Virus record (IMG/VR): IMGVR_UViG_3300027659_000022
Coordinates: 22,366-86,365 of that record
DNA from: a virus
DNA length: 64,000 nucleotides
Direction: 5' to 3' (one strand)
Shown: piece after piece, positions 12,940 through 63,411 of the stretch
How the letters are laid out: each line of letters begins with the position of its first letter
Position numbering within the stretch: position 1 is the stretch's first letter
Position numbers and translations under genes: made by a program
Notes under the pieces: generated by a model
The model's database searches: none
The model's input: only the letters and a program-made list of their open reading frames with translations
Told to the model about the DNA's origin: nothing

Positions 12940-14412
12940 TTGATTAATAACATAGCTATAGTAGGTGGGGGCACAGCCGGAGTAACTACCGCTTTGATTT
13001 TAAAAAAAACATATCCTAATCTACAGATTGATTTGATAGAATCAGATCAGATAGGAATCGTAGGGGTAGGAGAAGGCAGCACTGAACATTGGGCTACCTT
13101 CATGCAGCACTGTGATATCAGTACCACTGAGCTGGTCAAACATACTGATTGTACTTTTAAATACGGTATTAATTTTGATAACTGGAATGGCGATGGTACA
13201 AATTATATTCACACAATTAGCAGTGCTTTTAACATGGAGAGTCAAAGCAACAGTAAATTTGTATACTCATATCTGATAGCCAACGGAGCAGGCCCCAAGG
13301 ATCTCATTCACAAATATATAGAACCTAGTCTGCATAGAATGCCGTTCTTTACTATAAACCAATTTCATTTTAACACAACCAAATTAAATAAATTCCTACA
13401 CGATCTCTGCGATCAAAGAAAAATAAACACCATAAAAGCAGAAATCAAAGAAGTTAAATTGGATGAGCAGGGCGCAATCAAAGAGTTAATTACCACAACT
13501 GATAAACACCTTAGTTATGACTTATATGTCGATTGTACCGGATTTCATCGTTTGCTTTTGCACAAAACTATGGGGGTCAAATGGCGCAGTTACCAAAAAT
13601 ATCTTCCAATGAACAGTGCTATCGCATTCCCTACAGAAACCACAGAAAAAATTCCCAGTTGGACACTAGCAAAGGCAATGAACAATGGATGGTTATGGAG
13701 AATTCCAACTCAACAACGATACGGCAATGGTTACGTGTTCAATGATAGTTTTATAGATTTCGACAAGGCCGTTGACGAAGTTGAAAAGCTCTATGGACAT
13801 AAAATACAAGTAGCAAAAAAAATAAAATTTGATGCAGGATGTTTAGAAAAATCATGGGTAAAAAACTGTGTAGCTATTGGTTTATCTAGCAGTTTTATTG
13901 AACCTCTAGAAGCCAGCTCAATAGGATGCAGTATACAACAGGCATTCAAGTTAAATCATTTATTACCTGCTTATATACCGGAAATTAAAACTACTCGGGT
14001 GATCGACGAATTCAATCAAGAATGTGATGAACTTCTTGAAAATATTTTAGATTATGTAGCATTACATTATATCACTAAGAGAACTGACACAGATTTTTGG
14101 AAATCTGCTAAGACTCTTCCAAAACCTTCGGGGTTAGAAGACAAATTAGAATTATACAAATACAAATTTCCTAGTAAGTCAGAATTTTCAAATAGAAAAG
14201 TCATGTTTAAAGAAGCCAACTGGATATTAGTAATGCATGGTCTAGGATTAATCAGCAAAGAATTAGCACAGAAAGATGTGGACATGCAGGCTAAACATCT
14301 AATGGAATCAATACCGTATAATCTTCCTAAAGAGGATATCGATTCTGGAGAATTTGTTGATCATAGGCAGGCGTTACAATGGCTAATTGACAATCCAGAG
14401 CAGATAAATTGA
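12940..14412 (+). CDS. FAD-dependent tryptophan halogenase family protein
   Basis: This 490-residue protein matches the Trp_halogenase family in length and motifs. Residues 8-13 are the FAD-binding G-G-G-T-A-G. G-V-G-E-G-S-T near 42-48 is the second flavin motif. F-K-Y-G-I-N-F-D-N-W places Lys74 at the position of the catalytic Lys79 of PrnA. G-W-L-W-R-I-P is the halogenase signature W-x-W-x-I-P. S-S-S-F-I-E-P-L-E-A-S puts Glu324 at the position of PrnA Glu346, although the following Ser is replaced by Ala. The start is TTG, placed by an AAAAGG ribosome binding site and the complete FAD motif. The substrate cannot be told. An in-frame ATG start would lose the flavin motif. Confidence 0.85.
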   Translation: MINNIAIVGGGTAGVTTALILKKTYPNLQIDLIESDQIGIVGVGEGSTEHWATFMQHCDISTTELVKHTDCTFKYGINFDNWNGDGTNYIHTISSAFNMESQSNSKFVYSYLIANGAGPKDLIHKYIEPSLHRMPFFTINQFHFNTTKLNKFLHDLCDQRKINTIKAEIKEVKLDEQGAIKELITTTDKHLSYDLYVDCTGFHRLLLHKTMGVKWRSYQKYLPMNSAIAFPTETTEKIPSWTLAKAMNNGWLWRIPTQQRYGNGYVFNDSFIDFDKAVDEVEKLYGHKIQVAKKIKFDAGCLEKSWVKNCVAIGLSSSFIEPLEASSIGCSIQQAFKLNHLLPAYIPEIKTTRVIDEFNQECDELLENILDYVALHYITKRTDTDFWKSAKTLPKPSGLEDKLELYKYKFPSKSEFSNRKVMFKEANWILVMHGLGLISKELAQKDVDMQAKHLMESIPYNLPKEDIDSGEFVDHRQALQWLIDNPEQIN

Positions 14413-22322: not shown

Positions 22323-22646
22323 ACATATGGTTTTAAGATTCGCAGCTCGGCAGTTGTCTAAATTGCCGTCCATGTGAAACACTCTAAAAACTTCCGCATG
22401 CGGAGAACGAAACCCGCATTTTTCACACTGCGATTTCATTCTATAGCCACTGCGCAACCATCGTGGCACTCCTGTGTATAACCCATGAGCCATACAGATT
22501 TCACAGAGACTTCTATAATAGGTCTTGGAATTTTTCTTATAGTTCACAGCACAGGGTCTTGCACCGCACTTGCATAGTGGTCTCATACAGATATTTAACG
22601 CTTCTGTACCTTTTGCGCCCCTTTTGATTGGCACGTAATCATCCAT
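22251..22646 (-). CDS. HNH endonuclease-like zinc-finger protein
   Basis: This 131-residue basic protein has paired cysteines: Cys26/Cys28, Cys48/Cys51, C-E-K-C-G at 74-78 and C-L-N-C at 108-111. The core F-H-M-D-G-N-L-D-N-C-R-A-A-N-L-K-T-I-C at residues 90-108 is an HNH-type beta-beta-alpha-metal motif with His91 and Asn103. Such genes occur in many T4-like phages, either as free-standing homing endonucleases or as structural zinc proteins. It is antisense to its neighbours and overlaps the dNMP kinase 3' end by 72 bases, which suggests an inserted element. Nuclease activity is inferred only. Confidence 0.6.
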   Translation of the reverse strand: MDDYVPIKRGAKGTEALNICMRPLCKCGARPCAVNYKKNSKTYYRSLCEICMAHGLYTGVPRWLRSGYRMKSQCEKCGFRSPHAEVFRVFHMDGNLDNCRAANLKTICLNCAGVLSKEGVTWRQGDLVADY

Positions 22647-22662
22647 TTTTACTTGATACAGC

Positions 22663-22668
22663 TAAATA
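22663..22668 (+). promoter_or_regulatory. T4-type late promoter core upstream of sheath gene
   Basis: TAAATA here would start transcription near 22674. The resulting leader of about 26 bases carries AGGAGA at 22687-22692, correctly spaced for the ATG at 22700. Confidence 0.6.
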
Positions 22669-22699
22669 TTATGAGCAACTATTACCAGGAGAAAATGGG

Positions 22700-25600
22700 A
22701 TGGCACTACAATCACCAGGCGTACAAGTTACGGTAATCGACGAGAGTTTTTATACACCAGCAGAACCTGGTACCACACCTCTTATCGTAGTAGCAACAGC
22801 GCAAGATAAAACCAATGGTGCAGGCACAGGCACTGCATTAGGTACCACAGCGGCCAATGCTGGCAAGGCCTTTAAGATAACCAGCCAGCGAGAACTTACA
22901 GAAACATTCGGCGTTCCATTCTTTGAGAAAACAGCCAGTGCTACTCCTGTACATGGTTCAGAGCGCAACGAATACGGACTGCTTACAGCCTACAGTTTAT
23001 TGGGTGTAAGCAATGCTGCTTTTATCGTAAGAGCAGATGTCGACCTAGACGAACTAGAAGCACAGACTGACGCCCCGGGAGCGAATCCCACAAACGGCCA
23101 GTGGTGGATTGATACGCAGGCCACAACCTGGGGTATCCAAGAGTGGAATGGTGCCGCTGCAACAGTAGCAGGCGGCCAGAAATTCACATATAAAGTGCCA
23201 ATCGTACTCACAGACGCAGACTATCCTTCAAAAATTGTTCTTAATGGCAACGCCCCAAAAGAAGGAGTAGGCAAGATTGGTGACTATGCTGTGGTTTTCC
23301 GCACAGTGGAAGGTGACACTAGTTTTGGTGCAGAAGAAGAATATGCTAGAATCTATTACAAGAGTCCCGGTGCTCCAGCGTCTGCTGGTGGCAATGTAGC
23401 TGCGGTTGATGCAGGCGAATGGGTTCTAGTTGGATCTAACGAATGGCAGTCTAGCTGGCCTACAGTTAGCGGGACAGCAGTTAATACTTCAGTGACTTAT
23501 GATTTTTATATAAACAACAGTTTGGTCACTGGTACAGGAACTATTACGCAAGTGGCCTCAGCTATTAACTCTGGCAGTATTGAAGGAGTCAGCGCCCAGG
23601 CCATCAGCGGTAGATTGTACATTTACTCCAATGGTGAAACAAGCGCCACCGACGACTCAACCGGAGCAGATGGCAGAATTGTAATAGCGGTTGGAACATC
23701 TCCTTTAAGTAATGTTGGATTGACAGCAGGAACATATCTCAATCCTCGTCTAGCACAACAACCCCATACATCAATACCTGCGTTCAAACTTGCAGATAAT
23801 GCCGGAACGGTAGGCGGAGCAGCCACTGGCAGTGTGTGGGTCAAAACCACCGAACCCAATAACGGCGCTCGTTTGAGAGCCAAACGTTGGAGCTCAGCCA
23901 CACTGTCATGGGTCAGCTATGAAGCACCTATCTATGACACCACCTCAGCAGCTCTGTACTATCTAGATCGCAGCGGAGGCGGTGCAGGTATTGCAGAAGA
24001 TGCATTATTCACACAGTCAAATGCCAAAGAAACATCTGGTCTTGACACAACACCTGCTACAGCAACATTTAGATTATGGCGTAGAAATATTGCTGTAGGT
24101 TCAGCTACCAGCATCACCAGCAATATAATTAAAAACGGCACATTGGGATCATCAGGTACCAAAACATTTACCATCAGTGAATCACTGAAAACCACACTTG
24201 CCCTAGACACTGCGAAAACAATTACATTTACAGCAGTCAATACCAGCGCAGATGCAGAACTAATGGCTGCGGCTATTAACGCAGCTGGATTTACCAACAT
24301 TGTGGCTTCTGTTACAGCAGTCAGCCTTACATCTAACAGATTAATTATCAGTCACACACTAGGTGGAGATTTTAGACTAGTAGATACAGTAAGCACCGCA
24401 GTGGCCAGTATGTTTACTGCTTACAACATAGACACACTAGCAGGCACAGAAAACTTCTACGCTGCAGAATCTGCAGTAGGAGGCTACCTAGCTTCTGGTT
24501 GGAAGCCACTAGCAGCCTCGGATCCAAGATTTGCTGCTTCTCCAGATGCTCCGTTGAACGAGCCACAGGACGGTCAGTTATGGTATAATCCGAACTTCTC
24601 AGAAGTTGATCTAATGGTGCACAATGGTAATACATGGGTTGGATATCGTCATTCGACAGCACCGTACTATGAAGCAGCCACAGCAACATTGAGAAACGGA
24701 TATCTGCCTATAGTGTCAGCTTCAAATCCCTACAAGGCCAGCGTAACTGCCAATGGTGATATATGGATCAGCACAGCGGATCTTGAAAATTATCCTACCA
24801 TTTACAGATACAACACCAACTTGAGTGATGTACCTGATCTTGCACAGCGTTGGGAACTGGTAGACAAAGCAGACGATACCACAGAAGAAGGTGTGTTGTT
24901 TGCAGATGCACGTTGGAATACCGCAGGTACTTCAACAGTGGCCAGCACCATAGAAGACCTAATTACCAACAACTTCTTAGATCCAGACGCTCCGGATCCT
25001 GCACTATATCCTAAGGGTATGCTGTTATGGAACCTACGCCGCAGCGGAGGTAACGTCAAACAGTATCAAAACAGCTACATTGATACTACCGCTGATAATC
25101 CAAGAACCAGTGCAGCTACACTAGCAGGTTCAGCATTTGTCAGCGGCAGCGGTGAAAGCATGGAAACCTATGCCACAGACCGTTGGACCACAGCTTCAGG
25201 CAACAACGAAGATGGCTCAGGATCATTTGGTCGCAAAGCACAGCGCAAGGTTGTAACACAGGCCTTGAAGAGTGTAGTTGATACCAGTCAAGAGATCCGT
25301 GACGAAGAACGCCGCAATTTCAACATCATAGCTGCTCCTGGTTATCCAGAACTGTTGAGCAATCTAGTGAATCTAAACATCGATCGCGGTGTTACAGCGT
25401 TCGTGGTTGGCGACACACCGTTGAGACTACCTTCAGATGCCACAAGTTTAACCACATGGGGTACTAATGCTAACCTAGTCACAGACAACGGTGACGATGG
25501 TGTTGTTACATATGATGAGTATTTGGCGGTTTATTATCCAAACGGATTCACCACTGATCTCAGCGGTTCGCCTGCAGTGGTTCCAGCTAGCCACATGATG

Positions 25601-26164
25601 CTGAAGACCATCACACTCAGTGACAACGTCAGCTTCCCATGGTTTGCACCAGCAGGAACACGTCGAGGTGGTATTACTAATGCAACAGCAGTGGGTTATA
25701 TTGACGCTGCCACAGGTGAATTCCAAACTGTAGCTCTAAACGAAGGACAGCGTGATACATTGTATGATCTTAAGATCAATCCAATTCCATTCTTCAACGG
25801 AATAGGATTAGTAGCACACGGACAAAAGACTCGCGCAAGAAACGCTTCAGCATTGGATCGTATCAATGTAGCACGTTTAGTGGTATATCTACGCAGCCAG
25901 TTGAACAAGCTAGCTCGTCCGTATATCTTTGAACCCAATGATAAAATCACACGTGATGAAATCAAACAAGCTGTAGATAGTCTATTGTTAGAACTAGTAG
26001 GACTAAGAGCACTCTACGACTTTGCGGTTGTCTGTGACGAAAGCAACAACACACCTGCAAGGATAGATCGCAACGAACTGTATGTTGATATTGCAATTGA
26101 ACCCGTGAAGGCGATTGAGTTCATTTACATTCCGTTACGTGTCAAGAACACAGGAGAAATTTAA
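22700..26164 (+). CDS. 18: Contractile tail sheath protein (gp18-like, enlarged)
   Basis: This 1154-residue protein starts at 22700 after AGGAGA, rejecting an upstream in-frame GTG at 22628 that precedes the promoter. M-A-L-Q-S-P-G-V-Q-V-T-V-I-D-E-S-F-Y is the classic sheath N terminus. The C-terminal third (residues about 850-1154) has the conserved core: E-I-R-D-E-E-R-R-N-F-N-I-I-A-A-P-G-Y-P-E, V-V-G-D-T-P-L-R-L, P-A-S-H-M-M, P-W-F-A-P-A-G-T-R-R-G-G-I, the R-A-R-N-A-S-A-L-D-R-I-N-V-A-R-L run and F-E-P-N-D-K. T4 gp18 has 659 residues; the excess lies in the middle as repeated G-Q-x-W-x-x type beta inserts, probably exposed on the tail surface. Confidence 0.92.
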   Translation: MALQSPGVQVTVIDESFYTPAEPGTTPLIVVATAQDKTNGAGTGTALGTTAANAGKAFKITSQRELTETFGVPFFEKTASATPVHGSERNEYGLLTAYSLLGVSNAAFIVRADVDLDELEAQTDAPGANPTNGQWWIDTQATTWGIQEWNGAAATVAGGQKFTYKVPIVLTDADYPSKIVLNGNAPKEGVGKIGDYAVVFRTVEGDTSFGAEEEYARIYYKSPGAPASAGGNVAAVDAGEWVLVGSNEWQSSWPTVSGTAVNTSVTYDFYINNSLVTGTGTITQVASAINSGSIEGVSAQAISGRLYIYSNGETSATDDSTGADGRIVIAVGTSPLSNVGLTAGTYLNPRLAQQPHTSIPAFKLADNAGTVGGAATGSVWVKTTEPNNGARLRAKRWSSATLSWVSYEAPIYDTTSAALYYLDRSGGGAGIAEDALFTQSNAKETSGLDTTPATATFRLWRRNIAVGSATSITSNIIKNGTLGSSGTKTFTISESLKTTLALDTAKTITFTAVNTSADAELMAAAINAAGFTNIVASVTAVSLTSNRLIISHTLGGDFRLVDTVSTAVASMFTAYNIDTLAGTENFYAAESAVGGYLASGWKPLAASDPRFAASPDAPLNEPQDGQLWYNPNFSEVDLMVHNGNTWVGYRHSTAPYYEAATATLRNGYLPIVSASNPYKASVTANGDIWISTADLENYPTIYRYNTNLSDVPDLAQRWELVDKADDTTEEGVLFADARWNTAGTSTVASTIEDLITNNFLDPDAPDPALYPKGMLLWNLRRSGGNVKQYQNSYIDTTADNPRTSAATLAGSAFVSGSGESMETYATDRWTTASGNNEDGSGSFGRKAQRKVVTQALKSVVDTSQEIRDEERRNFNIIAAPGYPELLSNLVNLNIDRGVTAFVVGDTPLRLPSDATSLTTWGTNANLVTDNGDDGVVTYDEYLAVYYPNGFTTDLSGSPAVVPASHMMLKTITLSDNVSFPWFAPAGTRRGGITNATAVGYIDAATGEFQTVALNEGQRDTLYDLKINPIPFFNGIGLVAHGQKTRARNASALDRINVARLVVYLRSQLNKLARPYIFEPNDKITRDEIKQAVDSLLLELVGLRALYDFAVVCDESNNTPARIDRNELYVDIAIEPVKAIEFIYIPLRVKNTGEI

Positions 26165-31365: not shown

Positions 31366-32952
31366 ATGGGAAAATCACTAGACGGCGTACTGATTAAAAA
31401 GGCTCATGCTCAGACCAAATACACAATGGATGAGGTCAAGCATCTTGAAGCCTGCTTGGATCCTGTCACAGGACCTTTGTATTTCTGCACTAACTTTTTA
31501 AAGATACAGCATCCAACTCGTGGCGCTATCAATTTTGAACCCTACGAATATCAAGAAAGATTGATAAAAAGCATACACACTAATAGGCAGTGTATAGCCA
31601 TGCTGCCTCGCCAGATGGGCAAGACCACCTGTGCTACTGGTTATCTGCTTTGGTACACCATGTTCATACCTGACTGTCAGGTGTTGATAGCTGCCCACAA
31701 GTATGAAGGTGCCAAAGACATCATGGACAGATATAGATTTGGTTATGAAAATCTTCCAGACTTTATTCGTGCAGGAGTTTATTCATACAACAGAAACACC
31801 ATTGAATATGACAACGGTGCTAGGATACAGGCCACAACTACAACAGAAAACACTGGTCGTGGTAAATCTCTTTCATTGATCTACTGCGATGAGTTTGCGT
31901 TTGTGCAGCCGCCAGAAAAAGCCAAAGAGTTTTGGACAGCTTTGAGTCCCACACTAGCCACTGGTGGTAAGTGTATAATCACATCCACACCAAACTCAGA
32001 CGAAGATCAGTTTGCGTTGATATGGGCCGAGGCCAACAAGCGTTTTGACGAATTTGGCAACGAAGCCGAAGTAGGACAGAACGGATTTGCTTCATACACA
32101 GCTCATTGGTCAGAGCATCCAGATCGAGATGACGCATGGGCCAACGTGGAAAGATCTAAAATTGGTGAAGAACGTTTTCGTCGTGAGTTTGAATGTGAAT
32201 TCTTGATCTTTGATGAAACGCTGATCAACTCTGTGAAACTGGTCGAGTTAGCAGGCTCAGATCCCACAATGACCATGGGACAAACACGCTGGTACAAAGA
32301 CATAGATCCCAAGGCCACCTATCTAGTGGCTCTAGATCCCAGCCTAGGCACAGGCGGAGACTATGGTGCCATACAGGTCTATGAAATGCCTACAATGACC
32401 CAGGTAGCAGAATGGCATCACAACCAAACTCCAGTGCAGCAGCAGGTCAAACACATGCGAGAAATACTGAGATACATACACGATCGTGGAGAAGAACAGG
32501 GCGGTGTACCACAGATCTATTATTCAGTGGAAAACAACAGCCTCGGTGAAGCTGCGCTGATAGTGATCAACGACATAGGCGAAGAAAACTTCTACGGCCT
32601 GTTTCTCTCAGAACCCATACGCAAAGGACACATACGCAAGTTCCGAAAAGGATTCAACACCACGCACCGTTCAAAGATCACTGCCTGCAGCCAACTGAAA
32701 AATCTCATTGAAACTAATAAAATGAGCCTTAAATCAAAACCCTTGATTTCAGAACTCAAGACTTTTGTAGCCACTGGATTGGGTTTCAAGGCCAAAAGCG
32801 GTGAGCATGACGACCTAGTATCCAGCACACTGTTAATCATACGTATGGCCGATGTACTGGCCGATTGGGATCCGCAGATCTACGATAAAATGACTGAAAA
32901 AGTCTCCGAAGAATCTATGCCTATGCCGATCTTTGTTAGCATGGGCCTTTGA
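31366..32952 (+). CDS. 17: Large terminase subunit (gp17-like)
   Basis: This 528-residue packaging motor has both halves. In the ATPase half, P-R-Q-M-G-K-T-T at residues 81-88 is the terminase-type Walker A, and L-I-Y-C-D-E-F at 171-177 gives Walker B with Asp175 and the catalytic Glu176. T-S-T-P-N near 207-211 is the coupling motif. In the RNase H-like nuclease half, L-V-A-L-D-P-S-L-G-T-G-G-D-Y places the first metal Asp at 324, followed by Y-S-V-E-N-N near 386-391 and G-E-H-D-D-L-V near 488. T4 gp17 has 610 residues, so this is a compact version. It packages DNA into proheads and cuts concatemers. Confidence 0.95.
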   Translation: MGKSLDGVLIKKAHAQTKYTMDEVKHLEACLDPVTGPLYFCTNFLKIQHPTRGAINFEPYEYQERLIKSIHTNRQCIAMLPRQMGKTTCATGYLLWYTMFIPDCQVLIAAHKYEGAKDIMDRYRFGYENLPDFIRAGVYSYNRNTIEYDNGARIQATTTTENTGRGKSLSLIYCDEFAFVQPPEKAKEFWTALSPTLATGGKCIITSTPNSDEDQFALIWAEANKRFDEFGNEAEVGQNGFASYTAHWSEHPDRDDAWANVERSKIGEERFRREFECEFLIFDETLINSVKLVELAGSDPTMTMGQTRWYKDIDPKATYLVALDPSLGTGGDYGAIQVYEMPTMTQVAEWHHNQTPVQQQVKHMREILRYIHDRGEEQGGVPQIYYSVENNSLGEAALIVINDIGEENFYGLFLSEPIRKGHIRKFRKGFNTTHRSKITACSQLKNLIETNKMSLKSKPLISELKTFVATGLGFKAKSGEHDDLVSSTLLIIRMADVLADWDPQIYDKMTEKVSEESMPMPIFVSMGL

Positions 32953-54494: not shown

Positions 54495-54776
54495 ATGGGA
54501 TCTCTTAAACCGGGTGCAACCTATATCTACGAACGCAACGGTGAAGAAATCTACGCCAGAGAAGCAGGCAAGACCGAACGAACCATGATTGGTTATCAGT
54601 ATGAAAACAAACCAGATCCCCGAACCGATGATGGCCGTCCATTGTACGAACATCTTAAAGAAGATAAACTGTGGGGCGAAATCCGTCGGGCGGCAAAAAC
54701 CAACAAGGCCTTGCAATCTATTTTAGATCGTGCTATACTTGTGTATCATCTAAGCAAAGATCATGGGAAAAAATAA
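54495..54776 (+). CDS. Small conserved phage protein, unknown function
   Basis: This 93-residue protein starts at the ATG with AAAGG 6 bases upstream (an in-frame TTG at 54489 is rejected). L-K-P-G-A-T-Y-I-Y-E-R near residue 4 and I-G-Y-Q-Y near 34 recall a family in marine T4-like phages. The C-terminal half is helical and basic. An early promoter lies inside its 3' end and drives the next gene, which overlaps it by 14 bases. No catalytic motif is seen. Confidence 0.5.
   Translation: MGSLKPGATYIYERNGEEIYAREAGKTERTMIGYQYENKPDPRTDDGRPLYEHLKEDKLWGEIRRAAKTNKALQSILDRAILVYHLSKDHGKK
54711..54739 (+). promoter_or_regulatory. Sigma70-type early promoter before the clamp-loader-like gene
   Basis: TTGCAA, a 17-base spacer and TATACT lie inside the end of the preceding gene. 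Transcription would start near 54746, leaving a 17-base leader to the ATG at 54763. Confidence 0.7.
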
Positions 54777-55242
54777 ACACGTAGACCTATTCAAAGATAT
54801 GATTCCTGCAGTAGACATGGGGGTCAAAGAACTTTGGGACGCAGCCACAGACGATGGTCGAAAAGAAATCAAAGGCGATTTCTGGAATCTCAATCGATAC
54901 ATCAGTTCGGTGAAATCTTCAAGTGCAGAACTGCAAGAACACTATGTACTCACTGTTAACGAATACTACAACAAGCATTGGGCTGATATACAGCAGCATC
55001 CACAGTTGGTATGGCAGACGCTGTGTCTCTGCAGCCATGAATCGAAAAAAACACACTTCCACGAATGGATTCCTCTGAAAACACGCAAGAACAAAAAGGA
55101 AGAATTCATCGCCGAACATTTTCCTAACATGAAGCGAGCAGACATTGAAACACTGGCAGAACTCACCACAGATCAAGAAATCAAACAGTACTGTGAGAAC
55201 CTTGGTTGGGACAAAAAGCAGATCCATGGACTTAAACTTTAA
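54763..55242 (+). CDS. 62: Probable sliding-clamp loader small subunit (gp62-like)
   Basis: This 159-residue protein opens with V-D-L-F-K-D-M-I-P-A, like the D-L-F-K-D opening of marine gp62 proteins. It then follows their order of features: a short helical region with N-R-Y-I-S-S, N-E-Y-Y-N-K-H-W near residue 67, an H-E-W-I-P-L-K basic block near 98 and a D-I-E-T-L-A helix near 127. T4 gp62 (187 residues) works with gp44 to load the gp45 clamp. The gp44 and gp45 genes are not in this window, so the call rests on pattern and on the replication context. Confidence 0.6.
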   Translation: MGKNKHVDLFKDMIPAVDMGVKELWDAATDDGRKEIKGDFWNLNRYISSVKSSSAELQEHYVLTVNEYYNKHWADIQQHPQLVWQTLCLCSHESKKTHFHEWIPLKTRKNKKEEFIAEHFPNMKRADIETLAELTTDQEIKQYCENLGWDKKQIHGLKL

Positions 55243-55909
55243 GTGCGAATATTGTGGTAAAACATTTGCCAAGGAAAAGACTCTGTTTGTACATGTCTGC
55301 GAACAGAAACGCCGACATCTTGGACAGAATGAACGACACGTACATATGGGATTGATCACCTTCCAACGATTCTACGATCTCACACAAAAATCCAAGGGCA
55401 CCAAGACCTTTGACGAATTTGCTGCCAGTCCGTACTATACAGCATTTGTGAAATTTGGCAGTTTCATGATCAATACTGCACCCATCTATCCTGAACGATT
55501 CATAGACTTTGTGATCAAGAGTGGAGTTAAGTTAGATCATTGGTGTCGTGATGAGTTGTATGACGCTTACATCAGCGAATTGATCAAGATCGAACCAGCA
55601 GACGGAGCCATACAAAGAACCATACAGAACATGATGGCCTGGAGCGAAAAGAACCACAGTGCTTGGGAACATTATTTTGCCTATGTGAATCTCAATCGTG
55701 CCACACATGATATCAAAGAAGGATTAATCTCTCCTTGGATACTATTAAATACTCGAGAAGGCAAGACTATGTTGCAAAAGATGAATGATGAACAGTTGGC
55801 TATAGTTGGTCCAGTAATTGATCCGCAGTTCTGGTTACGTAGATTTAAAGAATTGCCTGCAGATCTAGAACTGGTAAGAGATGTTATCAAGGAGGCCAAG
55901 ATATTGTAA
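55226..55909 (+). CDS. C2H2-type zinc-finger protein, conserved phage type
   Basis: This 227-residue protein starts within the end of the previous gene (17-base overlap); an earlier in-frame start at 55145 is less likely. M-D-L-N-F-K-C-E-Y-C-G-K-T-F-A-K-E-K-T-L-F-V-H-V-C near the N terminus is a single zinc finger of C-x2-C-x12-H type ending in H-V-C. The rest is helical: F-V-K-F-G-S-F-M near residue 73, L-D-H-W-C-R-D-E near 101. It sits between replication genes, and nucleic-acid binding is inferred from the finger. I recall orthologues in marine T4-like phages without known function. Confidence 0.6.
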   Translation: MDLNFKCEYCGKTFAKEKTLFVHVCEQKRRHLGQNERHVHMGLITFQRFYDLTQKSKGTKTFDEFAASPYYTAFVKFGSFMINTAPIYPERFIDFVIKSGVKLDHWCRDELYDAYISELIKIEPADGAIQRTIQNMMAWSEKNHSAWEHYFAYVNLNRATHDIKEGLISPWILLNTREGKTMLQKMNDEQLAIVGPVIDPQFWLRRFKELPADLELVRDVIKEAKIL

Positions 55910-56334: not shown

Positions 56335-56913
56335 ATGCCTGACATTGACATAGACTTCGTTGATAGAGATTCTGCACTTAAACTGTTTCGACATATCAGA
56401 GCCAGTCGTGTGGATCAAGGTCAATTAATCAAACACAACACCGGTGTGTATTTTCACGCAGTTCCAGTAAATGCTGAGGCCAATGTCTGTGCTGTGCCCT
56501 ATGATCAAGCCGAAACGCAAGGATACTTCAAGATAGATTTTTTAAATGTTGGTATCTATAAAGGTGTTCGCGACGAAGCGCATCTAGTGGAGTTAATGAA
56601 TCAGGAGCCTCTATGGGATCTTTTAGAAGACGACTCTTTCGTCGCCTTGCTGTTTCACGTCAACGGGCATGGCGACATATTACGACAAATGAAACCCAAG
56701 ACGGTGGAGCAGCTAGCAGCGATACTAGCCATAATTCGTCCAGCAAAGAGACACCTAGTTGGAGAGAGTTGGTCGATAATTTTGAAAGAAGTTTGGCAAA
56801 AAACAGAAAACAATGAATATTATTTCAAGAAAAGCCATGCCACTGCCTATGCTGTGGCCATCGTGGTGCAGATGAATTTGATCTGTGAAAAAATTAGTTA
56901 TGGGTATGCATAA
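56335..56913 (+). CDS. Miniature DnaE-like (bacterial Pol III alpha palm) protein
   Basis: This 192-residue protein looks like isolated active-site segments of bacterial DNA polymerase III alpha. M-P-D-I-D-I-D-F at residues 1-8 matches the DnaE P-D-F-D-I-D-F block with its two catalytic Asp (here Asp3 and Asp5). H-N-T-G-V-Y-F at 34-40 matches the H-A-A-G-V region. Y-F-K-I-D-F-L-N-V-G at 64-73 matches K-M-D-F-L-G-L with the third Asp (here Asp68). M-K-P-K-T-V-E-Q-L-A-A-I-L-A-I-I-R-P matches the P-x-S-x-E-D-L-A-x-x-x-A-L-x-R-P region. F-K-K-S-H-A-T-A-Y-A matches F-x-K-S-H-A-A-A-Y. Full DnaE has over 1000 residues, so the PHP, fingers and clamp-binding parts are missing. Activity is unknown. Confidence 0.75.
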   Translation: MPDIDIDFVDRDSALKLFRHIRASRVDQGQLIKHNTGVYFHAVPVNAEANVCAVPYDQAETQGYFKIDFLNVGIYKGVRDEAHLVELMNQEPLWDLLEDDSFVALLFHVNGHGDILRQMKPKTVEQLAAILAIIRPAKRHLVGESWSIILKEVWQKTENNEYYFKKSHATAYAVAIVVQMNLICEKISYGYA

Positions 56914-57530
56914 TGGAACACAAAGAACTTAGAAATGTAGGTTTTGTACAAGAGACAGTTGATCTGCTACTCATGGAAAAAATTAAAAAAACTGTAAATG
57001 AAATAAAAGAAACCTTAAACGAACAAAGAAGTTTTGCAGGAAATTTAGTAGGAAATATTAAAAAACAATTTATCTTTGATCATCACCGAGAAGAAATAGA
57101 ACAACTTGCTATTAAACTAGCGCAATATCATGATGACATATATGACTGCAGCAATTATTTAGATGACAGTAATGGAAGATTATCTTTAGGTGCATTATGG
57201 ATTAATATGCAAGTTGCCGGAGAATTTAATCCAATACATAAACATCCAGGTGTATATAGTTTTGTTATTTGGATAGAATTGCCATTTACTCACGAAAATG
57301 AAAAGATGTACGGTCCAGGGGTTGCATCAAATGGAAATAAAGGCGGATGTTTTGAATTTGTATATACAAACACCTACGGACAACTAATGAGTCATCCAAT
57401 TCCTGCTGATAATTCTTATGAAGGGCAAATGATATTATTTCCTGCAAAACTTAATCACGTAGTGTATCCATTTTATACAGATGCAGGATACCGCATATCC
57501 ATAAGCGGAAATTTGTTTAGAAAACTCTAG
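56913..57530 (+). CDS. 2-oxoglutarate/Fe(II)-dependent oxygenase family protein (copy 2)
   Basis: This 205-residue protein has a helical N terminus (residues 1-90) and then a double-stranded beta-helix. I-H-K-H-P-G-V-Y-S-F-V-I-W near 108-120 gives His109 and His111. L-F-P-A-K-L-N-H-V-V near 175-184 gives His182, and Y-R-I-S-I-S-G-N near 193-200 gives Arg194 for 2-oxoglutarate. His111 stands where Asp is more usual in H-x-D. It matches the same phage oxygenase group as the gene at 14409. It is AT-rich compared with its neighbours. The ATG overlaps the mini-DnaE stop. Confidence 0.65.
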   Translation: MEHKELRNVGFVQETVDLLLMEKIKKTVNEIKETLNEQRSFAGNLVGNIKKQFIFDHHREEIEQLAIKLAQYHDDIYDCSNYLDDSNGRLSLGALWINMQVAGEFNPIHKHPGVYSFVIWIELPFTHENEKMYGPGVASNGNKGGCFEFVYTNTYGQLMSHPIPADNSYEGQMILFPAKLNHVVYPFYTDAGYRISISGNLFRKL

Positions 57531-57531
57531 A

Positions 57532-57903
57532 CTAGGAAATTTTCCTAACCAAGGTAATTGATTTACGTTTCACACGTTTGACAATAATGTCATTGAGACT
57601 GGTACAGGGGCCAAACAGCACCTTGACATCTTTGGTAGCAAAGGTCTTGACCACATAACGAAAAATAGCTAATTCCTTAGATAGAAATATATTGATAGGA
57701 ATCTGCCTGTTTGACTCCCACCACCAGGTTTCGCCGAATTCTAAAAACTGTTGTTTTTCGAGATCGGTACGAATACTACTATAATCGTAGATACTGGTAA
57801 CCTGTGCATCTTGGTTGATAATAATCCCAACATATTCGTGAGTTACGTGGTTAAGAACGCTGATGAACGGAAAGTTTTCTTGTAGGTTAGTTGATATTCT
57901 CAT
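57532..57903 (-). CDS. Conserved phage protein, unknown function
   Basis: This 123-residue protein contains G-E-T-W-W-W-E-S-N-R-Q-I-P-I-N-I-F-L near residues 57-74 and D-V-K-V-L-F-G-P near 92-99, with a basic C-terminal end (K-R-V-K-R-K-S). I recall proteins with this W-W-W-E-S-N-R segment in T4-like cyanophages, of unknown role and often near structural genes. It is on the minus strand, convergent to the oxygenase by one base and divergent from the structural gene at 57935. Confidence 0.55.
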   Translation of the reverse strand: MRISTNLQENFPFISVLNHVTHEYVGIIINQDAQVTSIYDYSSIRTDLEKQQFLEFGETWWWESNRQIPINIFLSKELAIFRYVVKTFATKDVKVLFGPCTSLNDIIVKRVKRKSITLVRKIS

Positions 57904-57934: not shown

Positions 57935-58759
57935 ATGCAATTTAATCCTGTTTATTTATACGCAAATAAGGTAGATGTTTTTACCAGTTCTATGGACACT
58001 TGGTCAACAGAGAGGTATCGCAAAGTGTATAATCGCAATCTAAAAATATTTCGTGGTGTTGATAACCGCATAGACATCCAGGTTCGTAACGCAGATCAAA
58101 AAGCCAGTAACATAGTTGGTAGTACTTTGGTATTTAACCTCGTTAGCCGAGACACCAAAGATTTAGTCTTGCAGAAAGATTTCACAGCCATGGATCTCGC
58201 CACAGGCAAAGTCACAGTGACCCTTACCGAGACTGAACTTATGGACCTTGATAACGGATTCTATAATTACAGCATTATCAAAGAAATCCGTGCTACTGTG
58301 GATTCCACAGACTACAGAGTAACATCTAAAATGCCTATGTATATGGATGCACAGTATGATACAGTAGGCACACTTGAGATCACTGGAGATGTGTATGGTG
58401 ATGTAGAACCCAGTGTGTTGGTAGACACATTCAATTATACCAACCCATTCACACAGGGAGATGACACCCCCAAGTTTTTTGTCAGCCAAATCATAGATGC
58501 AAGGCCTACACTGAACACTGCTAATTCCACACACACATTCCAATTTTATACCACAAACTATCAAGGCACAGTCACCATCGAAGGCAGCCTAGATACACAA
58601 GGTGCTACTCCAAGAGAATCTAAATGGGCCACTGTGGCCACAGTAGATTTATCAACTTCAAAATACAAAAACGTCGTGGGCAAGTACAATTGGTTTAGAA
58701 TCAAGCATATTCCAACCACTGCAAACACAGGAACCGTTGACAAGATCCTTTACAGATAG
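57935..58759 (+). CDS. Virion structural protein, BppU-like N terminus
   Basis: This 274-residue protein opens with M-Q-F-N-P-V-Y-L-Y-A-N-K-V-D-V-F. Residues 30-125 (I-F-R-G-V-D-N-R-I-D-I-Q-V-R-N-A-D-Q-K, then L-V-F-N-L-V-S-R-D-T) look like a baseplate upper-protein type beta domain. The second half is Thr-rich and beta, with W-A-T-V-A-T-V-D-L-S near 235 and Y-N-W-F-R-I-K near 254. The late promoter supports a virion role; its isolated position among early genes is unusual. It has no enzyme motif. Confidence 0.55.
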   Translation: MQFNPVYLYANKVDVFTSSMDTWSTERYRKVYNRNLKIFRGVDNRIDIQVRNADQKASNIVGSTLVFNLVSRDTKDLVLQKDFTAMDLATGKVTVTLTETELMDLDNGFYNYSIIKEIRATVDSTDYRVTSKMPMYMDAQYDTVGTLEITGDVYGDVEPSVLVDTFNYTNPFTQGDDTPKFFVSQIIDARPTLNTANSTHTFQFYTTNYQGTVTIEGSLDTQGATPRESKWATVATVDLSTSKYKNVVGKYNWFRIKHIPTTANTGTVDKILYR

Positions 58760-58771: not shown

Positions 58772-59803
58772 ATGACTCTCGTTGTGGACAAGTTCCGTGC
58801 TCTATTACCTCCTCGTGCCAAACACAGTCCTTCAGGTTGGACATCGTTTAACGCACCCTGCTGTCACCATCGAGGACACAAATCGGACACACGCAAACGA
58901 GCTGGTATTCGTTTTGACAGCGACAGTATAGTCTACAACTGTTTCAATTGCAAATTCACCACTGGTTGGCAGCCTGGTTCTCCATTCGGCGAAAAGATGA
59001 AAACACTGTGCCGTTGGTTGGGCGCAGGCGAAGATACTGTGAAAGAATTAGTGTTTGAAGCGATGAAAACAGAAGGTGAAGCTTATCGACCAGCCCCATC
59101 CGCAATCCAGGTCGCATTCACAGATAAAGAACTGCCGGAGGGCGCAATGCCCTTGCTAGACTGGGTGAACTGTGAATATTACAAAGATCTCAGTCTTTTG
59201 CTAGAACCAGTGATTTCTTATGTTGTAACCCGCGGCTACGACCCCTACAACGGCGATTTTTACTGGTCACCTAGCCCAGGATACGAAAATCGTGTTATTT
59301 TGCCTTTTAGGTGGCAGGGGCGTATAGTTGGCAATACCGCTCGTAAAATCGTCGACGGAAAACCAAAGTATCTATCCGATCAACATCCGCATTTTGTATT
59401 CAACTTTGATCGTCAACTTGAAGAACAGAAGTATATATTTGTCTGTGAAGGTCCGTTTGATGCCTTGGCCGTGGGTGGAGTTGCATTACTCACTAACGAA
59501 ATCGCTGAACAACAGAGTCGGATAATCAATAGCCTAGGAGCAGAAGTTATCGTAATCCCGGATCAAGACACAGCTGGATTGACGTTGTTTGATCGTGCAG
59601 CTGAATTGGATTGGAGCATAGCAATGCCTAACTGGGACGCAGACGTCAAAGATGTAGCAGATGCCGTACAACGATATAGTGCATTATTTGTGATCGTAGA
59701 TGCGATTAAAACTGCACAGCGAGGCCAGATAAAGATAAAAATGGCTAAACAACAACAAGAACTGAAATTACAAAGGTTAGAATATGACAAAGAACATCAT
59801 TAA
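58772..59803 (+). CDS. 61: DNA primase (gp61-like)
   Basis: This 343-residue protein has the primase layout. The N-terminal zinc ribbon uses C-C-H-H at residues 30-33 and Y-N-C-F-N-C at 55-60. A linker leads to the TOPRIM domain with Y-I-F-V-C-E-G-P-F-D-A-L-A near 225-237 (catalytic Glu) and V-I-V-I-P-D-Q-D-T-A-G near 262-272 (metal Asp pair). It would make RNA primers with helicase gp41, which is encoded 2 kb downstream under a similar promoter. The length is like T4 gp61 (342 residues). A 38-residue gene overlaps its 3' end. Confidence 0.92.
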   Translation: MTLVVDKFRALLPPRAKHSPSGWTSFNAPCCHHRGHKSDTRKRAGIRFDSDSIVYNCFNCKFTTGWQPGSPFGEKMKTLCRWLGAGEDTVKELVFEAMKTEGEAYRPAPSAIQVAFTDKELPEGAMPLLDWVNCEYYKDLSLLLEPVISYVVTRGYDPYNGDFYWSPSPGYENRVILPFRWQGRIVGNTARKIVDGKPKYLSDQHPHFVFNFDRQLEEQKYIFVCEGPFDALAVGGVALLTNEIAEQQSRIINSLGAEVIVIPDQDTAGLTLFDRAAELDWSIAMPNWDADVKDVADAVQRYSALFVIVDAIKTAQRGQIKIKMAKQQQELKLQRLEYDKEHH

Positions 59804-59900: not shown

Positions 59901-60496
59901 CTATCTTAGCTGTTGGTTGTAGTTTTTTGTGCCATAGATCAGAAGTTAGACCGCAATGTGTGGTTATGGCTGAATCTCTCAATGAGGATTTAGATAATCG
60001 TAGTATTCCGGGAAACGGAAATGCACATATATTACATAACACTATGACCGCGATACTTGAAAATCCCAACAAATATTCACTGGTATTGATTGGATGGTCT
60101 AATCCTGCTCGATGGGATTTTGTAACCGCTCCCCATAAATGGTTTGCCATAAAAATGGGGAACGTAATAGAAACAGCCACTGACAAAAGAATTAATTTTG
60201 AATTAACACTGTTTCGACATTGGGCTCCTCAAGTGCTTTTATTATCTTCTTGGTTAAGATCGAAAAATATACCTTTTCTAATGTGGAACAGTTTAGAATG
60301 TTGGTTAGAAGGCGATAGTATATTACACAAAGAAATATTATCCATACCTGAATTTTATAAACCAAAAATAAATCATATTGCTGATCTAAGAGAAAAAAAA
60401 CAATGGATTTCCGAAGAGGATCATCATCCGAACCAACAGAGTCATGATCTTTGGTCTAAAGAATTATTAGACTTTTATAGGAATTTATACAAATGA
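59897..60496 (+). CDS. SGNH/GDSL hydrolase-like protein
   Basis: This 199-residue protein shows the four SGNH blocks: A-V-G-C-S-F at residues 5-10 (Ser9 nucleophile), I-P-G-N-G-N-A-H near 37-44 (Gly), L-I-G-W-S-N-P-A-R near 64-72 (Asn69) and E-D-H-H-P-N-Q-Q-S-H near the C terminus (Asp and His of D-x-x-H). Such enzymes act as esterases or deacetylases, often on polysaccharides. It is coupled by ATGA to the carbamoyltransferase downstream, so a shared glycan-decoration role is likely. The substrate is unknown. Confidence 0.65.
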   Translation: MTILAVGCSFLCHRSEVRPQCVVMAESLNEDLDNRSIPGNGNAHILHNTMTAILENPNKYSLVLIGWSNPARWDFVTAPHKWFAIKMGNVIETATDKRINFELTLFRHWAPQVLLLSSWLRSKNIPFLMWNSLECWLEGDSILHKEILSIPEFYKPKINHIADLREKKQWISEEDHHPNQQSHDLWSKELLDFYRNLYK

Positions 60497-61962
60497 TAAC
60501 CTGGGGAATAAGTGCTGCCAGCCATGATGCTGCTCTAGCTGTGTTCAAAGATGATATATTGATTTTTGCCAGTGAAAGCGAAAGATTCAGCGGAGTAAAA
60601 AATGATCCCGATCTAGATCAACAACTGGTTGATCATGCTCGCACATTTGGTGAACCTGATCTTGTGTGTTGGTATGAAAAGCCGTGGAAGAAAACCTTAA
60701 GACAACTGTCTGCTGGACAGGGATACGTATCGAATCAAGTCAGCAAATATCTGAAAAAATATCAAATCACCGCACCTATAAAAACCATCGATCATCATCG
60801 CAGTCATGCCAGCGCAGGATATTATACTAGCGGATTCGACAATGCCTGTGTGTTAGTTATAGATGCCATTGGCGAGTTCGAAACTTACTCGCAATGGCAG
60901 GGCAAGGGGTCAACACTGACTAAAATAAACAGCGTTAAATTTCCTAACAGTGTGGGACTCTGGTACAGTGCCATGACTCAGCGAATTGGTCTCAAACCCA
61001 ACGAAGAAGAATACATTCTAATGGGAATGGCTGCACAGGGCGATCCAAATAGGCTGACTCGAGATATATTCAATGACTTTGTGTCTCTGCCCAATGATGA
61101 TTATCAGGTGCCGTTTAGGATCAACGGAAATCTGCATAGAGGCTGCAGAGCGTGGAGGCCTGATCTAACCACACAGCAGGATCAATTTGATATCGCAGCG
61201 GCTACACAACAGGTGTACGAACTGATCTTTGAACGTATACTACAGAGTGCTGCAACTACAACTTCAAGTAGAAATCTAGTGCTGATGGGCGGATGTGCCC
61301 TAAACTGTGTGGCCAACAAACTTGCATATAGATATTTTGATCATGTATGGATCATGCCTGCACCCGGAGACAATGGCAGCAGCATAGGTGCTGTGCTGGC
61401 TCATCGACAGCAGCATATCACATGGCCTGGAGCAGCCTTGGGCTACGACATGGGGTACCACACAGATAATCGAACCATTGTGGAATATCTTATCAAGCAC
61501 AAGATCTGTGGTCTAGCCCGAGGTCGCGCAGAATTTGGACCCAGAGCCTTAGGCAATCGAAGTCTCGTCGCTGATCCTAGAGGTCCACATATCAAAGAGC
61601 AGATTAACGGCATCAAACAGCGAGAACAGTTTAGACCCTTTGCGCCTGCTATCCTCGAAGAACTAGCGGATAAGTATTTTGAAATGCCTACCGCATCAAC
61701 TCCTTACATGCAGTTCACTGCGAGATGCAAGGATCCGGATTATTTTCCTGCGATCACGCACACAGACGGTACCAGTCGTGTGCAGACAGTGAGCAAAACT
61801 GATAATCCAGAATTTAGAGAACTGTTAGAAATATGGTATGATCTCACAGGCTGTCCCATGCTGTTGAACACCAGTCTTAACATCAAAGGGCAACCTATGG
61901 TCAACGATCACACAGATGCGGAGGCGTGGGCAAAGACCTATGGTTTACATGTGTTCACATAG
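60493..61962 (+). CDS. Carbamoyltransferase, NodU/CmcH family
   Basis: This 489-residue protein has the full NodU pattern. G-I-S-A-A-S-H-D-A-A near residues 5-14, E-S-E-R-F-S near 28-33, D-H-H-R-S-H-A-S-A-G-Y near 100-110 (metal His), G-M-A-A-Q-G-D near 178, and M-G-G-C-A-L-N-C-V-A-N near 263 come from the YrdC-like/kinase-fold half. E-F-G-P-R-A-L-G-N-R-S, F-R-P-F-A-P-A and L-L-N-T-S-L-N near 345-460 form the C-terminal domain. Such enzymes add carbamoyl groups from carbamoyl phosphate to hydroxyls of sugars or antibiotics. It sits between primase and helicase genes; T4-like cyanophages are known to carry relatives. Confidence 0.92.
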   Translation: MITWGISAASHDAALAVFKDDILIFASESERFSGVKNDPDLDQQLVDHARTFGEPDLVCWYEKPWKKTLRQLSAGQGYVSNQVSKYLKKYQITAPIKTIDHHRSHASAGYYTSGFDNACVLVIDAIGEFETYSQWQGKGSTLTKINSVKFPNSVGLWYSAMTQRIGLKPNEEEYILMGMAAQGDPNRLTRDIFNDFVSLPNDDYQVPFRINGNLHRGCRAWRPDLTTQQDQFDIAAATQQVYELIFERILQSAATTTSSRNLVLMGGCALNCVANKLAYRYFDHVWIMPAPGDNGSSIGAVLAHRQQHITWPGAALGYDMGYHTDNRTIVEYLIKHKICGLARGRAEFGPRALGNRSLVADPRGPHIKEQINGIKQREQFRPFAPAILEELADKYFEMPTASTPYMQFTARCKDPDYFPAITHTDGTSRVQTVSKTDNPEFRELLEIWYDLTGCPMLLNTSLNIKGQPMVNDHTDAEAWAKTYGLHVFT

Positions 61963-61977: not shown

Positions 61978-63411
61978 ATGATAAAAGATTACGGATACGA
62001 AGTACAGAAATTATATCTCGAACTGATGCTGTCAGATGCAGAAGTGTTCGTGCGCTGCCAAGGTATATTTGACCATACCCTGTTTGATCGCAAACTGCAG
62101 GATGCTGCAGAGTTCATCAATGAATATGCCAAACAGTACACAGTGCTGCCAGAATATGACATGGTAAATGCATCATGCAGACTGGATCTCAAAAGACCAG
62201 ACATAGTAAAAGATGGACATCTAGAATGGCTCATGGATGAGTTTGAATCATTCACCCGTCACAAAGCCATCGAACGTGCTATCATTTCGTCTGCGGATCT
62301 GTTGGAAAAACACAACTACGGTGAAGTGGAAACACTGATCAAAGCCGCGGTGCAGATAGGACTGGCCAGAGACATGGGCACAGACTATTTTGAAGATCCC
62401 CGAGGCAGGCTGATGGGTCTCAAAGACAAGAACGGACAGATCTCTACAGGTTGGCCCTGTATGGATCGTAAACTATTTGGTGGTATGAATCGCGGAGAGC
62501 TTAACATATTTGCGGGCGGTTCAGGTGCAGGTAAAAGTCTGTTCTTGGCCAACCTCGGAGTGAACTGGGCTCTGCAGGGGCTCAACGTGGTTTATCTAAC
62601 TCTGGAACTTTCAGAAGCACTGGTCAGTATGCGGATCGATTCCATGATCACTGGAGTGCCCACTAGAGAAATCTTCCGCGATCTTGATGACGTGGAAATG
62701 AAGGTCAAGATGATCGGTAAGAAAGCGGGACAGTTACAGATCAAATACATGCCTAGTGGTAAAACAGTCAATGACATACGAGCCTATGTCAAGGAATACG
62801 AAATCAAATGCGGCAAACCCATCGACGTGTTGTTGATAGACTACATGGACTTATTGATGCCCATAGGCAAGAAGATCTCTGCAGAAAATCTCTTTGTCAA
62901 AGACAAATATGTATCTGAAGAAATACGTAACTTGGCCATGGAAAAACAGGTGCTGTGTGTTACAGCAGCACAGTTGAATCGTGGAGCGGTGGAAGAAGTA
63001 GAGTTTGATCACAGCCATATATCAGGAGGATTGAGCAAGATCCAGACCGCAGACAATGTATTTGGTATCTTTACATCTAGAGCCATGCGTGAGCGTGGTC
63101 GCTATCAACTGCAGTTAATGAAGACCAGGTCTAGTTCGGGTGTAGGTCAAAAGATTGATCTAGAGTTTAATCTTGACAGCCTAAAGATATCAGATCTGCC
63201 GGAAGATGAACAAGACACACAGAACAACGCCAGTCGTGGCAGCACCAGCATCATTGAACAGATAAAACGCAAGACAGATCTGCAGCGAACAGATCCTGTA
63301 ACAGGTGAAATAGATCCTGCACAAGGACAGCCCGTAGCCAAGGTACGGGCTAATGTAGAAAGCACCAAACTGCGTGAGATTCTCAAAGGACTTAATTCCG
63401 ATGAAGAATGA
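61978..63411 (+). CDS. 41: Replicative DNA helicase (gp41-like, DnaB family)
   Basis: This 477-residue protein has an N-terminal helical domain (residues 1-150) and a RecA-like motor. G-G-S-G-A-G-K-S at 180-187 is the Walker A. L-T-L-E-L-S-E near 204-210 carries the catalytic Glu region of DnaB helicases. D-V-L-L-I-D-Y-M-D-L near 279-288 is the Walker B. A-A-Q-L-N-R-G near 321 and H-I-S-G-G-L-S near 337 are DnaB motifs H3 and H4. The tail is Gln/Asp-rich. It unwinds the fork with primase gp61. Its end overlaps the next gene by 11 bases. Confidence 0.94.
   Translation: MIKDYGYEVQKLYLELMLSDAEVFVRCQGIFDHTLFDRKLQDAAEFINEYAKQYTVLPEYDMVNASCRLDLKRPDIVKDGHLEWLMDEFESFTRHKAIERAIISSADLLEKHNYGEVETLIKAAVQIGLARDMGTDYFEDPRGRLMGLKDKNGQISTGWPCMDRKLFGGMNRGELNIFAGGSGAGKSLFLANLGVNWALQGLNVVYLTLELSEALVSMRIDSMITGVPTREIFRDLDDVEMKVKMIGKKAGQLQIKYMPSGKTVNDIRAYVKEYEIKCGKPIDVLLIDYMDLLMPIGKKISAENLFVKDKYVSEEIRNLAMEKQVLCVTAAQLNRGAVEEVEFDHSHISGGLSKIQTADNVFGIFTSRAMRERGRYQLQLMKTRSSSGVGQKIDLEFNLDSLKISDLPEDEQDTQNNASRGSTSIIEQIKRKTDLQRTDPVTGEIDPAQGQPVAKVRANVESTKLREILKGLNSDEE

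Follow-up and report, generated by a model that had tools for sequence, protein, structure and literature searches.

A short DnaE-like phage protein as the probable C-terminal half of a polymerase III core divided between two genes

As a rule, replicative polymerases of family B and of family C are found in separate branches of life. What, then, is a protein of 192 residues with the motifs of bacterial DNA polymerase III alpha (DnaE, family C) doing in a T4-like phage? An earlier note on this DNA found the combination surprising and offered a family C relict, a new small nucleotidyltransferase, a decoy of host DnaE or a repair factor as possible explanations. The gene lies at 56335-56913 on the plus strand of the window analysed here, a stretch of 64,000 nucleotides (bases 22366-86365) from a virus record 86,365 bases long; its product starts MPDIDIDFVDRD, and its start codon abuts the stop codon of the preceding gene. 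Position, length and cited motifs were all exact in the earlier description. A profile match places the protein in PHROG 11778, and it is almost certainly the C-terminal half (hereafter C-half) of a minimal core of Pol III alpha that has been split.

The C-half and its conserved residues

A profile search matched the C-half over residues 3-186, near its full length, to PHROG 11778, annotated as “DNA polymerase” (E 3.6e-67), and also to phrog_405, a long phage family C profile of 1190 residues (E 2e-9); the Pfam finger-domain match remained below threshold, with 16.2 bits against a cut-off of 22. In a single hhalign comparison of the C-half family alignment with a DnaE alignment (E. coli DnaE and bacterial loci), the match spans E. 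coli residues 399-783 with a probability of 99.1 and an E-value of 7e-18. On these alignments the product is a genuine DnaE homologue, and the relationship proposed in the earlier note holds.

Relatives of the C-half are widespread in phages. With tblastn, 90 phage records were found, all at 80% query coverage or more and all below 60% identity (best 54.6%), jumbo phages being the majority among the records listed, and more than 560 IMG/VR stretches encode a relative. Bacterial matches comprise DnaE itself only, at a mere 24-30% identity; this, together with an intact gene kept in hundreds of viral contigs, rules out a truncated or broken host dnaE. A frameshift or assembly artefact is likewise ruled out, given that start, length and neighbours are common to the relatives.

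The predicted structures point the same way. AlphaFold2 gave a pLDDT of 92.4 for the C-half, in whose model strands 4-8 and 67-71 bear D5, D7 and D68, and of 89.0 for a partner half (N-half, described below) from a related contig. All of the best 11 PDB matches to the C-half and of the best 12 to the N-half are Pol III alpha or PolC, and their query-normalised TM-scores reach 0.64 and 0.54, respectively; as modelled, the palm/finger fold of Pol III is present in the C-half.

The hhalign comparison maps the three aspartates for which a catalytic role had been proposed onto the DnaE triad (D3=D401, D5=D403, D68=D555), together with K66=K553, H34=H511, R135=R639, H168=H760 and D7=D405. The triad is invariant in 192/192 distinct relatives (38-100% identical), and D7, H34, G37, P44, K66, L70, R135, P136, K138 and H168 never vary in the same set. 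These counts are possibly biased upward, since a single short conserved motif was enough for a sequence to be retrieved; the eight isolate phages, which came from a motif-free tblastn search, show the same conservation pattern. Neither of the outcomes named as refuting in the earlier note was seen: the homologues retain the three aspartates, and Pol III alpha gives the best matches to the predicted fold. R135 and H168 correspond to positions at the nascent base-pair pocket, where the third contact of DnaE, Gln638, is H108 in the C-half; the invariance of the arginine and the histidine suggests that a template may be read.

Much of DnaE is missing, in line with the remark in the earlier note that most other domains are lacking. 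There are no residues equivalent to DnaE before 399 or after 783, and the alignment of the family with DnaE shows gaps, with approximate edges, at 419-460, 467-499, 679-717 and 726-751. The first two of these correspond to the thumb, and the family also lacks the part of the fingers that in E. coli contains YQEQVM (686-691) and ADMLRRAMGKK (705-715). The PHP, thumb, full-finger, clamp-binding and C-terminal features of full-length DnaE are thus absent from the C-half, and the loss of the finger stretch and the thumb makes classical processive synthesis unlikely. Also absent from this chain is GRGS (DnaE 361-364), so that a complete catalytic site, with GRGS and three aspartates, is not present on one polypeptide.

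The partner gene and the genome context

A separate gene encodes the N-terminal palm segment that the C-half lacks. With Pfam PF07733, another short gene was identified in each of the eight isolate genomes and in four IMG/VR relatives; its match covers profile positions ~11-98 and reaches the point at which the C-half begins. These N-halves are 155-183 residues long, all carry GRGS, and their C-terminal end is the segment equivalent to DnaE “FERFL”; PHROG 11127 (“DNA polymerase”) is matched by all twelve. In the alignment with DnaE, the N-half profile covers residues 242-398 (probability 98.6), without overlap with the C-half, which starts at 399, and GRGS, aligned to DnaE 361-364, is invariant in 81 distinct N-halves. 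A 62-sequence profile detected the N-half in four further long contigs. By tblastn the N-half is found in 90 phage records, the same number as for the C-half, and the host tallies nearly coincide. No fused, single-gene minimal form was found among the phage loci; the two halves occur on one chain only in bacterial full-length DnaE. Of DnaE, the two halves jointly preserve a palm and a minimal core of the fingers; the PHP, thumb, clamp-binding, OB and tail regions are absent from both. Judged from these alignments, a polymerase core is divided between two genes, its halves exactly complementary at 398/399. A relict is unsupported given a second gene whose GRGS exactly complements the C-half, and so is a new small nucleotidyltransferase in the form first proposed, one chain, since GRGS lies on that second gene.

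Given this division, the whereabouts of the N-half and of the family B polymerase are of interest. The family B polymerase was present in 13/14 records tested, the sole exception being the 86 kb window contig, and both halves accompany it in 8/8 isolated phages examined. In four relatives the family B polymerase gene is 23-26 kb downstream of the N-half, and the C-half comes another 144-159 kb later, the distance between the halves in four long contigs of relatives being ~167-184 kb; in isolates the separation ranges from ~14 kb (RAS14) to >180 kb. There is no evidence of an N-half in the 86 kb window record by Pfam PF07733 or the 62-sequence profile, and neither this gene nor the family B polymerase is expected there, as just 78.7 kb lie upstream of the C-half. 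The closest relative, a 280 kb contig with a C-half 85% identical, has 162 kb between polymerase and C-half, and no N-half was found on it; upstream of its polymerase this contig continues for just 18.6 kb, which together with the gene order predicts an N-half just outside it.

Other genes of the window support a T4-like setting: a T4-type large terminase (31366-32952), a tail sheath (22628-26164) and the gp41- and gp61-like helicase and primase described below. The structural part of the phage genome also holds a flavoenzyme of the tryptophan halogenase family (12940-14412, plus strand; PF04820, E 3e-107). Between 37797 and 54492, inspection by eye found apparent sugar-nucleotide epimerases/dehydratases, a nucleotidylyltransferase, glycosyltransferases and FkbM-like methyltransferases, a run of genes whose sequences suggest phage-directed glycan synthesis.

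The surroundings of the C-half were compared across 61 loci with enough flanking sequence. Upstream, two plus-strand genes are each conserved in 59/61 loci: PHROG 11758 (54763-55242, 159 aa) and PHROG 11058 (55145-55909), the latter encoding a C2H2-like zinc finger close to the N-terminal end of its product. The conserved PHROG 11058 protein probably starts near 55226, and it may be a partner of the split polymerase or regulate it. The plus-strand gene directly after the C-half (56913-57530) encodes a 2OG-Fe(II) oxygenase (PHROG 81) with relatives nearby in just 12/61 loci, and is therefore regarded as accessory. It is followed by a 123-residue PHROG 11637 protein on the minus strand (57532-57903; just downstream of the C-half in 59/61 loci), whose opposite-strand placement is unusually conserved, and by a plus-strand gene for a protein resembling a virion structural protein (PHROG 14467; 57935-58759; 57/61 loci). 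Further downstream, and also on the plus strand, are the genes for a T4 gp61-like DNA primase (58772-59803; a neighbour in 59/61 loci) and a DnaB-like replicative helicase similar to T4 gp41 (61978-63411; 55/61 loci), placing the C-half in a replication cluster. A NodU/TobZ-like carbamoyltransferase (60493-61962, plus strand) lies between primase and helicase, with a relative near the C-half in 45/61 loci, and its location among the replication genes hints at a connection to DNA or nucleotide modification. The C-half neighbourhood differs in XacN1 and RAS14. The N-half, for its part, has two genes after it within ~3.5 kb in RaK2, Atu_ph07 and Phosso: one is GroES-like or labelled “head morphogenesis”, the other is the clamp loader gp44 (in Phosso, an AAA-ATPase). 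PA5oct has a chaperonin there, together with a similarly sized gene that carries no annotation. A DnaQ-type exonuclease, considered as a fixed partner, scored above cut-off in seven of the eight isolates and weakly in the eighth; the IMG/VR contigs gave weak matches or none, and it was not found in the window contig.

Possible functions of the paired halves

We consider it most likely from the sequences that the two halves pair into an active nucleotidyltransferase which would aid replication or repair. In DnaE, GRGS holds the phosphates of the incoming nucleotide (as in pol-beta-type nucleotidyltransferases). The N-half, encoded elsewhere in the genome, would give the initial portion of the palm, which includes this motif; the C-half would give the metal-binding D3, D5 and D68 as well as R135 and H168, which would face the new base pair; and the two would bind each other and so rebuild one active site. 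Paired in this way, they would add nucleotides to a primer alongside the phage family B replicase, and their role may be short gap filling, the handling of lesions or primers, or the synthesis of one strand; with the thumb, the clamp-binding region and most of the DNA-gripping parts lost, tasks such as short gap filling would be a better fit than bulk copying. Reconstitution of the halves into an active, template-using enzyme is probable on this reasoning, and it is likewise probable that a catalytic and template-binding C-half and its N-half form a two-gene minimal family C core beside a family B replicase. The repair factor of the earlier note is a possible description of such a role.

The halves may instead assemble into a specialised nucleotidyltransferase, engaged in end-tailing, lesion bypass or primer handling and not in copying a template. 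Such an enzyme would keep its catalytic residues and could dispense with the thumb and with the YQEQVM/LRRAMGKK finger stretch, as is observed, and phages that carry the C-half already have a full replicase; we nevertheless regard this as unlikely, since the two invariant residues that face the templated base pair suggest template reading. Somewhat less unlikely, if still doubtful, is a broader proposition: that the two halves are the smallest known family C enzyme. It would be a polymerase or nucleotidyltransferase of ~350 residues on two chains, lacking a thumb, beside a family B replicase and with a chemistry or role (tailing, bypass or primer handling) unlike any characterised Pol III.

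It is more improbable that the pieces of DnaE serve as a non-catalytic part of the replisome, a structural or template-binding module on the family B replicase. Their extreme reduction, the split into two genes and the conserved position by primase and helicase are consistent with such a module, but the invariance of the three aspartates, of the lysine in K-x-D and of GRGS in the partner, in relatives down to 38% identity, would be unexpected in a protein freed from catalysis. In DnaE, the PHP region binds DnaQ, and the clamp- and tau-binding regions are C-terminal. That the protein is a decoy of host DnaE, disturbing replication in the host by binding its clamp, DnaQ or clamp loader, is very improbable: nothing beyond the resemblance to host Pol III alpha speaks for it, the C-half lacks the PHP region and the C-terminal clamp- and tau-binding regions, a mimic of those contacts needs no complete set of catalytic aspartates, and the protein is kept across very different hosts, paired with a complementary half.

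Comparison with known systems

A split minimal Pol III, present beside a family B polymerase, has been described in group 2.2 jumbo phages (Iyer et al., 2021; PMC7824862), where the polymerase activity of the paired halves is a prediction. The co-existence of the two families that the earlier note assumed is borne out in the related phages, and its surprise is reduced, both having been reported together. The family of the C-half closely resembles the published one: in its phages, too, T4-like jumbo phages with a family B polymerase, two distant genes encode an N-terminal NTP-binding part and a C-terminal part binding Mg2+ and template, and we see no essential difference. The proteins of that study were equated with PHROG 11127 and PHROG 11778 through their description in the text and the phages shared, and the protein of the window departs from PHROG 11778 by ordinary sequence divergence only.

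Earlier reports of short or truncated “Pol III alpha” proteins, Atu_ph07 gp316 (PMC6102473) and CBB_328 with 172 aa (PMC5259590), concern the N-half and not the C-half: gp316 lies at the PF07733 match, and the N-half match in CBB is 172 aa long. No experimental or biochemical study of the split polymerase was found in the literature searched, which lay mostly outside subscription journals. Phages in which a complete family B replicase stands beside a family C core in two pieces would allow a direct test of how little of Pol III suffices for catalysis, and of the purpose of a second polymerase; with its split point exactly placed, its invariant residues listed and its partner gene matched, the 2021 prediction is easily testable with two small proteins.

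With the bacterial enzymes (E. coli DnaE, Taq Pol III alpha and Mtb DnaE1) the C-half shares the palm aspartate triad, K-x-D, H-x-x-G-V, RP, KSHA and the predicted fold, whereas it has 192 residues against 1160, is without PHP, thumb, clamp-binding, OB and tail regions, and has its GRGS on a separate polypeptide. The protein of the window thus belongs to a kind known since 2021, to which the exact split point, the conservation counts and the gene order are added here.
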